NCBI RefSeq assembly: GCF_007474545.1
Contig: NZ_VKOG01000001.1
Span: forward strand, 1,178,001-1,242,000
Direction: 5' to 3'
Length of the DNA: 64,000 nucleotides
DNA from: Chryseobacterium binzhouense
Lineage (GTDB): Bacteria > Bacteroidota > Bacteroidia > Flavobacteriales > Weeksellaceae
The position numbers were made by a program, and so were the translations under genes. Positions 49,739-54,462 of the stretch are shown one piece after another (position 1 is the stretch's first letter; every line of letters starts with the position of its first letter). The notes under the pieces were generated by a model. That model saw only the letters and a program-made list of their open reading frames with translations. It had not been told where the DNA came from and made no database searches.

Positions 49739-51043
49739 ATGAAAAAAATATGGCAAAAAGACGATAACGCCACTAATATATTAGTCAACACATTCACAGT
49801 TGGAAAAGATCTTGATTTTGATGAACGTTTGGCAAAATACGATGTCAAAGGTTCAATGGCGCATTGCAAAATGTTGTCGGAAGTCGGGATTATTTCTGTT
49901 GAAGAATCAGAGCAAATGTTATTTGTTTTAAAAGAAATTTTAGACGATATCGAAAACGGAATCTTTCAAATCGATAAGAATGCAGAAGATATTCATTCTC
50001 AGATTGAATCAATTTTAATTGAAAAATTAGGCGATATCGGAAAGAAAATTCACACGGCGCGATCTAGAAACGATCAGGTTTTACTGGATATTAAATTGTA
50101 TTTATTAGATGAAATTCGTGAGATTACATTATTAACAGACGAATTCTTTCAGATATTAATCAAACTGGCGGAACAGCATAAGAATGTTTTGCTTCCGGGA
50201 TACACGCATTTACAGATTGCGATGCCTTCTTCATTCGGATTGTGGTTTGGAGCTTATGCAGAAGCATTTTTAGATGATATAGAAATGTTGTTTTCGGTTA
50301 AAAATATCATCAATAAAAATCCTTTGGGCTCTGCGGCAGGTTACGGTTCATCGTTCCCGATTGACCGTGAAAGCACAACATATAATTTAGGCTTTCAGTC
50401 GATGAATTACAATTCGGTTTACGCTCAGATGACGCGTGGAAAGTCTGAGAAAATGCTGTCGATGGCAATGGCGACTTTAGCCGGAACATTAGGGAAATTT
50501 TCTTACGATGTTTGTCTGTATTTAAGTCAGAACTTTGATTTCATCAGCTTTCCGAAGAAATTTACCACAGGAAGCAGCATTATGCCTCACAAGAAAAATC
50601 CGGATATTTTTGAGTTGGTTCGTGCGCGCTGCAACAGAATACAGTCTTTGCCGAATGAGTTTATTTTGCTCACAAATAACCTTCCTTCAGGCTATCACAG
50701 AGATATGCAGCTTACAAAAGAAATTCTTTTCCCTGCGATTGATTCTTTAAAAGAATGTCTGGAGATTTTAAATTATACGTTGCCTAATATTCAGGTGAAA
50801 GACGGCATTTTGGAAGATGAAAAGTACAAATATCTTTTCAGCGTAGAGAAAATCAATGAAGAAGTAAAAAACGGGAGTTCATTCCGTGATGCCTATGTAA
50901 AAGTAGGGCAGGAGATTGAAAATAATGCGTTCGATTTTGAAATTGGAAATTTAAATCATACACATCAGGGAAGTATCGGAAATCTTTGTTTGGATAAGAT
51001 TGAATATCAGTTTAATAAATGGAAAAATAAATTGTTGAGTTGA
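49739..51043 (+). CDS. argH: Argininosuccinate lyase
   Basis: Splits argininosuccinate to arginine and fumarate, the last step. The protein is 434 residues. The family signature is 'TGSSIMPHKKNPDIFELVRA'. 'KIHTARSRNDQV' and 'LPGYTHLQIAMPSSFG' hold active-site residues. It is the last gene of the arginine cluster. A long nested inverted repeat separates it from the convergent Lrp gene. Confidence 0.96.
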   Translation: MKKIWQKDDNATNILVNTFTVGKDLDFDERLAKYDVKGSMAHCKMLSEVGIISVEESEQMLFVLKEILDDIENGIFQIDKNAEDIHSQIESILIEKLGDIGKKIHTARSRNDQVLLDIKLYLLDEIREITLLTDEFFQILIKLAEQHKNVLLPGYTHLQIAMPSSFGLWFGAYAEAFLDDIEMLFSVKNIINKNPLGSAAGYGSSFPIDRESTTYNLGFQSMNYNSVYAQMTRGKSEKMLSMAMATLAGTLGKFSYDVCLYLSQNFDFISFPKKFTTGSSIMPHKKNPDIFELVRARCNRIQSLPNEFILLTNNLPSGYHRDMQLTKEILFPAIDSLKECLEILNYTLPNIQVKDGILEDEKYKYLFSVEKINEEVKNGSSFRDAYVKVGQEIENNAFDFEIGNLNHTHQGSIGNLCLDKIEYQFNKWKNKLLS

Positions 51044-51052
51044 TTTATTTTA

Positions 51053-51154
51053 AACCATTAAGATTCATTTAAGGAGTTAAAAAAATTAAGAGATATAGGA
51101 TTTTTGATATAATTCGCTTAAAAATTTAATTTCTTAATTAAAATCTTAATGGTT
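51053..51154. repeat. Nested inverted repeat between argH and the Lrp gene
   Basis: AACCATTAAGATT (51053-51065) pairs perfectly with AATCTTAATGGTT (51142-51154). Inside, AATTAAGA (51084-51091) pairs with TCTTAATT (51132-51139). The element fills nearly the whole gap between the convergent genes and may terminate both. Confidence 0.7.
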
Positions 51155-51158
51155 CAAT

Positions 51159-51620
51159 TTAACCCAAATCAATCTTAAACTTAGTAGACTTCTTCACCTC
51201 ATGAAGCACAATAGAACTGTGATATTGCCCAATACTCGGAATATTAGAAATGACATTTACGGTAAACTCGTTATAAGAGTTGATGTCTTTGGCAATAATT
51301 TTTAGCATATAATCGTATTCGCCGGAAAGACTAATGATTTCCTGAACTTCATCATGCTGCATAATGTTTTTCTCAAAAGTCTCTAAAACTTTTTTAGACT
51401 GTTCTTTAAGACGGACATTACAGTAAACGACAATATTTAAGCCCAGTTTTTCACGGTTGAGAAGACCCACATATTTTTCGATGATTCCCTGTTTCTCCAG
51501 CTGTTTAATGCGTTCGTAAGTCGGCGTAAAGGTGAGACCGATTTTTTCTGAAATTTCCTTAACAGAATGCGTAGAGTCTTCCTGAATGATGCTGAGAATC
51601 ATTTTGTCTTTTAAATCCAT
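51159..51620 (-). CDS. Lrp/AsnC-family transcription regulator
   Basis: A protein of 153 residues with an N-terminal winged helix-turn-helix ('DKMILSIIQEDSTHSVKEISEKIGLTFTPTYERI') and a C-terminal RAM/ligand domain ('VLETFEKNIMQHDEVQEIISLSGEYDYMLKI'). This is the standard Lrp/AsnC layout, which senses amino acids and forms octamers. It lies between argH and pyrB and is divergent from pyrB, so it is a candidate for local control, but its ligand is unknown. Confidence 0.92.
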   Translation of the reverse strand: MDLKDKMILSIIQEDSTHSVKEISEKIGLTFTPTYERIKQLEKQGIIEKYVGLLNREKLGLNIVVYCNVRLKEQSKKVLETFEKNIMQHDEVQEIISLSGEYDYMLKIIAKDINSYNEFTVNVISNIPSIGQYHSSIVLHEVKKSTKFKIDLG

Positions 51621-51706
51621 ATATAATGAAGGTTGAATGGTAACAAAAATAATATATAAAAATGAAATAGGAAAAAGAATATTCTAATTAAATCCACTTT
51701 AGAGTT

Positions 51707-51736
51707 TTGTCATTTTACAGAATTGTTATATCTTTG
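51707..51736 (+). promoter_or_regulatory. Promoter of the pyrB leader
   Basis: TTG (51707-51709) and TATCTTTG (51729-51736) match the Bacteroidetes -33 and -7 elements with a 19-base spacer. Transcription would begin within about ten bases of the -7 box, near the leader ATG at 51743. This is the best complete promoter in the window. Confidence 0.75.
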
Positions 51737-51742
51737 CACCTA

Positions 51743-51814
51743 ATGAATAACACAGTATTTATATCATTAGAATTACCGGGCGTAGACGCCCTTTACGATA
51801 TTTATTTATTTTAA
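51743..51814 (+). CDS. Putative pyrB leader peptide (23 residues)
   Basis: ATG at 51743 opens a 23-codon frame that ends with TAA at 51812-51814, inside the base of a terminator stem. Its last eight codons read Leu-Tyr-Asp-Ile-Tyr-Leu-Phe before the stop and are very U-rich. A strong hairpin, GGGCG-UAGA-CGCCC (51778-51791), is within the coding part, just before the U-rich stretch. This is the arrangement of a leader peptide used for attenuation, as in enterobacterial pyrBI. No ribosome-binding site is visible, which is common here. Translation is inferred. Confidence 0.55.
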
Positions 51815-51843
51815 GCGAAGATATTTTCTTCGCTTTTTTTTTT
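51813..51843 (+). terminator. Attenuator terminator before pyrB
   Basis: AAGCGAAGA (51813-51821) and TCTTCGCTT (51827-51835) form a perfect 9-bp stem with a five-base loop, ending in ten consecutive T. It lies 21 bases before the pyrB ATG, downstream of a promoter and a leader frame. A terminator placed inside the leader like this would stop most transcripts before pyrB unless something blocks it. Confidence 0.88.
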
Positions 51844-51863
51844 GTAAAAAATTTAAAGACAAT

Positions 51864-52754
51864 ATGTTTACGATTACAGAACTAAGCAACGAGAGAATCA
51901 ACAGTATAGTAACAGAAGCTTTGGCTTTTGCGAACGGAAAAACTGCCAAAATTGATGGAGAAGTTTTCTGTTCCAATCTTTTCTTCGAAGACAGTACCAG
52001 AACGAAAACAAGTTTTGATATTGCCGAAAGAAAATTAGGATTGCAGGTCGTTCCTTTTGATGCATCAAACAGTTCTGTGAATAAAGGGGAAAGTCTTTAT
52101 GATACAGTAAGAACAATTGAAAGTCTTGGAGTAAATCTGGTGGTGATCAGAGATAAAAAAGACCGATATTTTGATGAATTAAATGATATTAAAATTCCCA
52201 TAATCAACGGGGGAGACGGAACGGGAAATCACCCTTCACAATGTATGTTGGATTTGATGACGATTTATCAGGAATTCGGAAAATTCGAAGGGTTGAAAAT
52301 AGGAATTGTCGGAGACGTTAAACACAGCAGAGTTGCCAATTCCAATGCCGAAGCTTTAAGAAGACTGGGCGCAAAAGTTTACTTTTCAGGACCTGAACAA
52401 TGGTTTGATGAAGGTGCTTTAATCAACGGAACCTACTTATCTGTTGATGAAATGATAAAAGATGTTGATGTGTTGATGCTATTGAGAATTCAGCATGAAA
52501 GACACGATGCAAAAATGAGTTTTTCTGCTTCGGAATATCACAGAAAATATGGTTTAACAAAAGAAAGAGAAAGAGCCATGAAAAAAGAAGCTATTATTAT
52601 GCATCCTGCACCGATTAACAGAGGAGTTGAAATTGATGATGATTTAGTAGAATGTGAACGTTCAAGAGTTTTCAAGCAAATGCAGAACGGTGTTTTCGCA
52701 AGAATGGCAATTTTAAAAGAAGCTTTGGAAAAAGAAGGCTATACTTTTAAATAA
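51864..52754 (+). CDS. pyrB: Aspartate carbamoyltransferase catalytic subunit
   Basis: First committed step of pyrimidine synthesis. The protein is 296 residues. The carbamoyl-phosphate loop is '[20 protein letters not shown]', '[20 protein letters not shown]' holds the catalytic His, and '[13 protein letters not shown]' is the Leu-Pro type aspartate segment. No pyrI regulatory subunit is next to it, so control probably acts on expression through the leader. It lies before carA, which makes its substrate. Confidence 0.96.
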
Positions 52755-52790
52755 ACGAGATTCACGATACGAGTTTCAAGTGTAAATAAA

Positions 52791-52857
52791 ACCGACCACA
52801 AATTCCCATCCAAAGGAGGGGGGCGGAAATTCAGAATGAATTTTTGACGGGGTAGCT
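52791..52857. repeat. Dispersed repeat with a GAA-loop hairpin, pyrB-carA gap
   Basis: AAATTCA-GAA-TGAATTT (52827-52843) is a perfect 7-bp hairpin with a GAA loop. It is preceded by CCCATCCAAAGGAGGGG, itself a near-palindrome, and ends in TTTTTGACGGGG. The type of sequence is unlike coding DNA here. No second copy is in this window. Confidence 0.55.
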
Positions 52858-52941
52858 TAAAAGTAAAATAGAAAGAAATAAAAATAACAGAATGATGAAG
52901 TCTAACTTCTAATTTCTAAAATCTAATATCTAATTTAAAAA

Positions 52942-54015
52942 ATGAAGAAAAAGTTAATACTGGAGTCCGGTGAAGTGTTTCATGGAGAAGGTTTCGGAGC
53001 AGACTTGGAAACTGCAGGAGAAGTAGTTTTCAATACCGGAATGACAGGGTATCAGGAACTGATCTCAGATCCGTCTTATTGTGGTCAGATTGTTTGTATG
53101 ACTTACCCGCTGATTGGAAACTATGGGATTAATAGAGATGATTACGAGAGTATTGAGCCGGCTATTAAAGGTCTTATCGTAAAAGAACTTTGTGATCTGC
53201 CATCTAATTTCCGTACTCAGATTACTTTAGATGAATTATTTAAAAAGAAAAACCTTTCAGGAATTTCAGGAATTGATACAAGAAGACTGACAAGAATTCT
53301 TCGTAATTCCGGAGTGGTGAAAGGAAAAATTGTAAATGCTGATGCCGCCGCAAATACTGTTGTAGCAGAATTAAAAGGAACAACGTTCCCAACTAATCAG
53401 GTGGAACAGGTTTCAACAAAAACATCTTATGCAAATCCGGGAAGAGGTTTAAAAGTTGTTTTAGTGGATTTTGGATCAAAATTGGGGATTATCAGAGAAT
53501 TATCTCAAAGAAACTGTGATATTACAGTGGTTTCTCATGATACAACGGCGGAAGAAATTCTATTGATGCATCCAGACGGAATCATGCTTTCAAACGGTCC
53601 CGGAGATCCTGAAGATAACCAACCTGCTTTAGAAATGATTCGAGGTTTATTAGGGAAAGTTCCAATTTTCGGAATCTGTTTAGGGCATCAATTGATCGGT
53701 TTGGCTTGTGGAGCGAAAACTTTTAAGTTGAAATTCGGACATAGAGGTGGAAATCACCCGGTTTTAGATTTAGTAAAAAACAAAGTAGCAATTACTTCTC
53801 AGAATCACGGTTATGCCGTTGATCAGGAAAGTTTGAAAGATACAGAATTAATCGAAACGCATATCGCACTGAACGACAGAACAAACGAAGGTCTGAAACA
53901 CAAAATTCACCCGTGCTTCTCAGTTCAGTATCACCCTGAAGCAAGTCCGGGTCCTGAAGATGCGAATTATTTGTTTGATGATTTCATTACTTTGATGGAA
54001 GATTTTAAAAAATAA
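52942..54015 (+). CDS. carA: Carbamoyl-phosphate synthase small subunit
   Basis: Splits glutamine to give ammonia for carbamoyl phosphate. The protein is 357 residues. The N-terminal domain opens with 'LESGEVFHGEGFGA' and the class I amidotransferase domain has its catalytic Cys in 'FGICLGHQLIGLACG' and the His-Glu pair in 'QYHPEASPGPEDA'. Its partner carB is separated from it by a four-helix-bundle gene. The product serves both arginine (ArgF') and pyrimidines (PyrB), both encoded nearby. Confidence 0.96.
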   Translation: MKKKLILESGEVFHGEGFGADLETAGEVVFNTGMTGYQELISDPSYCGQIVCMTYPLIGNYGINRDDYESIEPAIKGLIVKELCDLPSNFRTQITLDELFKKKNLSGISGIDTRRLTRILRNSGVVKGKIVNADAAANTVVAELKGTTFPTNQVEQVSTKTSYANPGRGLKVVLVDFGSKLGIIRELSQRNCDITVVSHDTTAEEILLMHPDGIMLSNGPGDPEDNQPALEMIRGLLGKVPIFGICLGHQLIGLACGAKTFKLKFGHRGGNHPVLDLVKNKVAITSQNHGYAVDQESLKDTELIETHIALNDRTNEGLKHKIHPCFSVQYHPEASPGPEDANYLFDDFITLMEDFKK

Positions 54016-54462
54016 TTTAGATTTCAGACATTAGACATCAGATAACAGACTTTTTATATGCATAATTTTGAGAGATTAATTTTTTGGCAGAAATCAATAG
54101 AACTTGCAAAAGAGGTCTATATTATTTGTGCTGATTTACCAAGAGATGAAAAATTTGGTTTGATTTCTCAGATTAAAAGATCAGTTGTTTCTATTCCGTC
54201 AAATATTGCGGAAGGAGCAGGAAGAAACAATGATAGAGAATTTTACCATTTCCTTGGAATTGCAAATGCTTCCTCTTTTGAATTGCAGACACAATTAATA
54301 TTAACAAGAGAATTGGGTTTACTTAATGCAGAAAAAGTCAACAGTTTAATATCAGATCTGAATGAAATTCAACGAATGATTTATACATTTAAATCTAATC
54401 TTAAAAAGTAAACACAATATTGGAAGTCTAAAATCTGAAATCTGACTTCTAATATCTAAAAA
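54016..54462. repeat. Inverted flanks around the four-helix-bundle gene
   Basis: AGATTTCAGA (54019-54028) and TCTGAAATCT (54434-54443) are a perfect 10-bp inverted pair. Each lies in a longer AT-rich tract of TCTAA/AGA type: 54016-54050 on the left and 54423-54462 on the right. A similar tract, GTCTAACTTCTAATTTCTAA, lies just before carA at 52900. Confidence 0.6.
54058..54411 (+). CDS. Four-helix-bundle protein (S23/Avd-like)
   Basis: A protein of 117 residues of the four-helix-bundle family seen in 23S rRNA intervening sequences and as accessory (Avd) proteins of diversity-generating retroelements. The signature is 'NFERLIFWQKSIELAKEVY' at the start, 'PRDEKFGLISQIKRSVVSIPSNIAEGAGR' in the middle and 'FYHFLGIANASSFELQTQLI' near residue 70. 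It sits between carA and carB, where nothing links it to carbamoyl phosphate. Inverted sequence (AGATTTCAGA at 54019 and TCTGAAATCT at 54434) brackets it, so it may have arrived as a mobile cassette. Function is unknown. Confidence 0.88.
   Translation: MHNFERLIFWQKSIELAKEVYIICADLPRDEKFGLISQIKRSVVSIPSNIAEGAGRNNDREFYHFLGIANASSFELQTQLILTRELGLLNAEKVNSLISDLNEIQRMIYTFKSNLKK

Follow-up and report, generated by a model that had tools for sequence, protein, structure and literature searches.

The pyrB leader region

The window, by which we mean the whole 64,000-nucleotide stretch that was analyzed, comes from contig NZ_VKOG01000001.1 of Chryseobacterium binzhouense, a member of the Weeksellaceae. Below, the genus of this organism is called the source genus and the Weeksellaceae the family; other genera carry labels (g2, g3 and so on). 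The pyrB gene is preceded by a compact leader, the parts of which are listed in Table 1. A first-pass annotation had described a promoter box, a 23-codon leader frame, a mid-leader hairpin, a U-tract and a terminator in front of pyrB, and all of these were found where they had been placed. That pyrB follows the terminator also held, but the gap between the T run and the pyrB ATG, given as 21 bases, counts as 20 nt. The terminator stem starts at the second base of the leader stop codon.

Table 1. Features of the pyrB leader region, with positions numbered from the first base of the window
Feature	Position	Strand	Remarks
Promoter of the Bacteroidota sigma-A type	51706..51736	+	TTTG (-33) at 51706-51709, TTG being 51707-51709; -7 box TATCTTTG at 51729-51736
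P1, predicted 5'-terminal hairpin CUAAUGA...UCAUUAG enclosing the leader start codon	51740..51770	+	Predicted fold; lineage-specific
Putative leader peptide frame, 23 codons + stop	51743..51814	+	Read in the sequence
P2, mid-leader hairpin GGGCG-UAGA-CGCCC, candidate pause hairpin	51778..51791	+	Fold, shuffles, covariation
U-tract, candidate UTP-dependent pause region	51801..51812	+	Starts ~10 nt past P2
Intrinsic terminator	51813..51843	+	Stem 51813-51835; T run 51834-51843 (ten T, two within the stem)
pyrB, aspartate carbamoyltransferase catalytic chain, Bacilli-like	51864..52754	+	Structure-database matches

The RNA from 51737 to 51900 folds more stably than 200 of 200 dinucleotide shuffles (z -4.34), and the terminator has a mean dG of -11.7 kcal/mol in the source genus. 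A plain consensus scan, on the other hand, gave no excess over chance for either promoter-like sites (6 against 13.4 expected) or terminator-like sites (3 against 2.3), and the case therefore rests on comparison with relatives.

Downstream, the interval between pyrB and a carA-like gene (52754-52942) holds a repeat-like stretch; a similar sequence (CCACCCCGTCAAAA...CCCCTCC) lies 3' of pyrB in six source-genus loci (L004, L012, L015, L021, L024 and L027). A 117-aa frame (54058-54411) sits between the carA-like and carB-like genes, and we take it to encode a four-helix-bundle protein of the 23S intervening-sequence type.

Distribution of the layout

PyrB was matched in all 149 of 149 source-genus genomes, and the 99-nt leader was matched once in each of 174 of 174, with 86-100% identity among the matches listed. 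The C. binzhouense genome has no second copy of the leader; the next matches within it are short, the best being 27 nt long and falling on the terminator part (E 4e-5). In one source-genus genome (G063, C1:527121-527845) the pyrB match is broken into pieces and interrupted by several in-frame stops, and the leader is matched at full length.

Among 120 genomes drawn from the family, 93 gave PyrB matches. Setting aside the 12 of the source genus, four of g21 (E about 1e-4, and by match position other carbamoyltransferases) and one fragment without the 5' end (G203) left 76 other genomes with 77 distinct pyrB loci. The layout is present at 68 of these 77 (58 + 10 loci, ten of the 68 not being among the 82 distinct leaders analyzed below) and, with the source genus included, in 25 of the 26 genera that carry this PyrB. 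Aligning the pyrB upstream regions of relatives had been proposed as a check on the first-pass annotation, and the outcome was favorable: promoter box, frame, hairpin, U-tract and terminator occur jointly in 25 genera. The nine loci without the ATG/-7 layout all belong to g17 (L166-L174), and their terminator differs. In this divergent relative a long open frame runs across the terminator at eight of the nine loci, with a possible TTG start.

A layout pattern, which does not itself fit the source genus, was also run against a collection of species genomes. Of its 27 matches, 26 lie 13-24 nt 5' of pyrB, and these come from records of Elizabethkingia, Kaistella, Chryseobacterium, Cloacibacterium, Cruoricaptor, Amniculibacterium, one Weeksellaceae MAG and one Flavobacteriia MAG. 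The 27th match is to a locus of Clostridium saudiense without pyrB. Inspection by eye of 20 regions 5' of pyrB from other Bacteroidota families found no such layout (terminator-like sites occur in five of them), nor was the leader-terminator layout seen in 20 regions before pyrR outside the family. Searches of open-licence PMC papers turned up no account of pyrB attenuation in Bacteroidota, in line with the earlier remark that none was known from flavobacteria.

The leader frame and its stop codon

Leaders were retained if the gap between box and ATG was 5-7 nt and the terminator stem began 55-100 nt after the AUG; none of the 117 loci was lost by these limits. A few genomes had been entered twice, but each of the 82 distinct leaders was counted once. 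Is the leader frame really kept? Frame 0 stays open up to a point 9 nt short of the terminator in 81 of the 82 (24 genera), the sole exception being L093 of g4, and frames +1 and +2 are open in 2 and 18 of them. In the 23 genera outside the source genus, the openness expected by chance from mononucleotide shuffles is 0.11-0.26 per genus. The distance from AUG to terminator, taken as the majority value of each genus, leaves a remainder of 1 on division by 3 in 19 of 24 genera and of 2 in the other five.

The encoded peptides differ widely between genera when taken whole. They nevertheless have some stretches in common: one resembling LDD, SLDL or FDD in 12 of 24 genera, and (N/D)I(Y/F), which is encoded by the U-tract, in 16 of 24. 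Because of these stretches, and because the genera are related by descent, the genera are not fully independent tests. The substitution pattern is likewise mixed. The pN/pS ratio of the leader is below 1 in g26 (0.70), g2 (0.65), g11 (0.25) and g9 (0.59) and above 1 in the source genus (1.76) and g5 (2.67). The expectation that relatives would keep the frame through synonymous changes is thus borne out by the open frame but only in part by the substitutions, which go against it in the source genus and g5.

The stop codon lies 1-16 nt before the terminator stem in 71 of the 82 distinct leaders and inside or beyond the stem in the other 11; it is never found more than 16 nt upstream. According to excerpts of PMC4824070, amino-acid attenuators keep the stop codon more than 20 bp from the terminator, and moving an E. 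coli stop codon from 28 to 5 bp before the terminator lowered termination from ~90% to <10%. Judged from sequence, the spacing in the present leaders is at the pyrBI end of this scale.

This bears on the possibility that the leader is an amino-acid attenuator of the trp/his type, in which stalling of the ribosome at regulatory codons allows an antiterminator to fold. Such an attenuator would have an identical parts list (leader peptide, mid-leader hairpin and terminator), trp, his and leu attenuators being similar to the present leader in combining a leader peptide with a terminator, and the excerpted text of PMC9723704 gives clues to leader-peptide attenuation before amino-acid operons in a flavobacterium. 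Against it stands the stop codon, which here adjoins or enters the terminator. Moreover, pairing of upstream RNA with the 5' arm of the terminator exceeded shuffles at p <= 0.05 in only one of 24 genera, g24, which has a possible strong upstream partner (-9.7 kcal/mol); g3, g7 and g16 come near it (p 0.07-0.08). Finally, there is no run of a single amino acid common to the peptides listed, and among these no common codon run of the kind found in trp, his and leu leaders. The pooled composition is led by F, I, N and L, a dominance expected from A/U-rich RNA. We consider an amino-acid attenuator most unlikely.

The P2 hairpin and the U-tract

The best hairpin between leader start and terminator begins 28-52 nt after the AUG, and at 32-37 nt in 71 of the 82 leaders. 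At p <= 0.05, P2 stands out from shuffles in 62 of the 82 distinct leaders and, counted by genus, in 16 of 24; it does not in the remaining 20 leaders and eight genera. Covariation was scored on 27 distinct 14-mers, all of them hairpins with a 4-nt loop. The score was 0.563 as against 0.167 for shuffled sets (reached by none of 500) and at most 0.142 when the hairpin position was slid; 96.3% of the cells were paired and there were 28 both-side changes.

P2 is followed by about nine A-rich bases and then by the U-tract, at offsets 10-19 (U 51-81%, genus-weighted). In all 24 genera the U-tract is richer in U than the 9 nt that precede it. An AUAUU motif is present in 76 of the 82 leaders and, relative to the leader frame, is found in each of the three phases, indicating that it is kept as nucleic acid.

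These dimensions can be compared with those of the E. coli K-12 pyrL leader, in which the hairpin GCGUCU-gaaaaa-AGACGC (about +33 to +50, counted from the AUG) is separated by ten bases from UUUUUC. The order of hairpin, 10 nt and U-tract is common to both, and 10 nt is also the spacer between structure and pause site in one pausing study (excerpts of PMC9291695). The same excerpts report for E. coli pyrL that NusA and compensatory mutants argue against a hairpin-stabilized pause at the site studied, and that the pause seen there probably does not depend on a hairpin, which leaves the role of P2 unsure.

Could the leader nevertheless be unregulated, with a terminator that is always partly read through and a short frame that only loads ribosomes? 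The layout extends over 25 genera, the hairpin covaries and the spacing is steady. Upkeep of such an arrangement without regulation would be hard to explain, which makes an unregulated leader extremely improbable.

The promoter, the predicted start site and P1

A TAnnTTTG box lies 5-7 nt 5' of the leader ATG at all 117 loci, and the -7 box of the source locus matches it. A TTG 14-28 nt before the box is present at 59 of 59 source-genus loci (shuffle expectation 42.7) and at 33 of 58 loci outside the source genus (expectation 18.0). In Flavobacterium psychrophilum, the sigma-A box of flavobacteria, TAnnTTTG, occupies -12 to -5 (excerpts of PMC9723704). Transferring this position to the present locus predicts a start at about 51741 and a 5' UTR of about 2 nt. 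The best reading of this predicted start is that the leader mRNA would be almost leaderless. Leaderless mRNAs make up 5.5% in F. psychrophilum and 5' UTRs shorter than 10 nt about 3.7% in Bacteroides thetaiotaomicron, as given in the portions of PMC9723704 and PMC7366714, respectively, that were consulted.

The very short predicted 5' UTR, like the position of the AUG inside the predicted P1, is absent from the first-pass annotation. P1 has a median dG of -1 kcal/mol or lower in 13 of 24 genera and a median p of 0.05 or lower in seven of 24; the combined p over genera is 4e-4. With 13 of 24 genera only, it was rejected as a universal part of the layout.

In pyrC-like control, the start nucleotide governs formation of a 5'-terminal hairpin. 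Applied to the present leader, the +1 nucleotide would decide whether P1 hides the leader AUG. The source-genus AUG, which P1 encloses and which follows the predicted start by about 2 nt, is suitably placed for this, and the energies and combined p given above fit. P1 is, however, weak or missing in 11 of 24 genera that still keep frame and terminator, and the start site is a predicted one. Start-site control in place of attenuation seems highly improbable to us; it could, though, act on top of attenuation.

An ultraconserved leader in the source genus

Across 39 source-genus loci the leader has pS 0.026 and pN 0.063, and pyrB has pS 0.596 and pN 0.032; synonymous sites are thus about 23 times less changed in the leader than in pyrB. 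An alignment of 55 source-genus loci (4 of 59 were omitted as repeats, although one of these, L054, is no repeat) gave segment means of 0.975-0.998 for the majority base between -14 and +62 relative to the AUG. The P2 loop (0.67) and individual sites at +8, +10, +13 and +29 depart from this; the flanks have 0.75-0.80. The conserved block (51729-51805 in the window) ends abruptly on both sides, at the -7 box and near the terminator.

Selection at the peptide level was rejected as the cause of this conservation since pN exceeds pS. The constancy of synonymous sites indicates that more than the frame and a hairpin is conserved in this genus. P1 around the AUG explains part of it. The ultraconserved leader of the source genus is a separate puzzle.

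A sensor in the leader itself offers another way to read this conservation: the nascent peptide might arrest the ribosome, or the leader RNA might be a riboswitch-like pyrimidine aptamer. Conservation from -14 to +62, the P2 loop excepted, exceeds what a frame and one hairpin need, and the peptide stretches common to many genera would also be accommodated. An arrest peptide is hard to reconcile with whole peptides that differ widely between genera and with a source-genus pN above pS. Further evidence against a sensor is that AUAUU is read in three phases and that no Rfam family reached its gathering score: a search of 51000-53000 with E up to 1 gave three matches, every one under its gathering score, and no PyrR element among them. 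We judge a sensor of either type quite improbable.

PyrR, PyrB and the history of the locus

PyrR-type attenuation, as known from Bacilli, also acts before pyrimidine genes, and the PyrB encoded here is Bacilli-like. In contrast to that system, none of 120 family genomes gave a match at E <= 1e-8 to a single PyrR query from another family, a search in which a very divergent PyrR could be missed. At E <= 0.001 the query matched none of five family genomes and all 25 genomes chosen from 128 of other families. Taken with the Rfam result, this agrees with the earlier statement that the locus has no PyrR-type element. In the other families, among the matches listed, PyrR is encoded upstream of pyrB on the same strand, at most about 600 nt away. 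A PyrR-like frame stands directly 5' of pyrB in all ten other-family loci that were read, and one was recognized by eye in 12 of the 20 pre-pyrB regions from other families of the phylum.

The PyrB proteins of the family are about 34-46% identical to their best matches in other families. The closest structures are 3r7d (E 5.7e-104), 2at2 (1.7e-103) and 6pnz (2.9e-95), presumably Bacillus subtilis and Staphylococcus aureus entries; the 1at1/1d09 structure group matches at about 1e-36. The simplest history, a putative one, has pyrR lost, a foreign pyrB acquired and an attenuator newly evolved. The attenuator is probably an independent invention, convergent with that of enterobacterial pyrBI.

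A ribosome-coupled attenuator as the proposed mechanism

We think it likely that the pyrB leader is a ribosome-coupled transcription attenuator that works like that of enterobacterial pyrBI. This is the reading that the first-pass annotation had put forward, and it gains support from the jointly kept layout, the absence of a PyrR match and a predicted geometry that matches E. coli pyrL. The open frame, the covarying hairpin, the spacing of the U-tract, the stop codon at or in the terminator and the lack, in 23 of 24 genera, of an antiterminator above shuffles also speak for it. In E. coli, when UTP is abundant, polymerase runs into the terminator; when UTP is low, it pauses and the coupled ribosome prevents the terminator hairpin (excerpts of PMC10135430).

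Applied to the present leader, the mechanism would be as follows. Transcription would start some 2 nt upstream of the leader AUG, and a ribosome would initiate on the short leader frame. RNA polymerase would slow just past P2, within the U-tract about 10 nt downstream. With UTP plentiful, it would escape ahead of the ribosome, the terminator would fold and pyrB would not be transcribed. With UTP scarce, the pause would be long and the ribosome would catch up; having reached the stop codon or its vicinity, where leader and terminator base overlap, it would block the terminator stem, and pyrB would be transcribed. Translation of the frame, pausing, UTP as the signal and coupling of transcription with translation in this phylum are all parts that we infer.

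Like E. coli pyrL, the leader frame overlaps an intrinsic terminator before pyrB. The two leaders differ in several respects and have no sequence likeness by eye. The E. coli frame has 44 codons, as against 23, and ends beyond the base of the terminator, whereas the leaders of the family mostly end at the base (71 of 82, with 11 inside or beyond). Unlike pyrL, moreover, the present leader has a predicted 5' UTR of about 2 nt, precedes a Bacilli-like pyrB and belongs to a family whose relatives have pyrR near pyrB.

The terminated leader RNA, about 100 nt long, may possibly act in trans as well, as a small regulatory RNA. A more far-reaching and in our opinion doubtful proposal would join all of this: loss of pyrR, acquisition of a Bacilli-like pyrB and evolution of the family's own UTP-sensing, ribosome-coupled, near-leaderless attenuator, the leader RNA of which acts in trans, one element being both sensor and signal. 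If the attenuator reading is true, nucleotides would be sensed by a race between polymerase and ribosome in a phylum from which Shine-Dalgarno sequences are reported to be absent, and the family would have come to such sensing probably independently of the enterobacteria.
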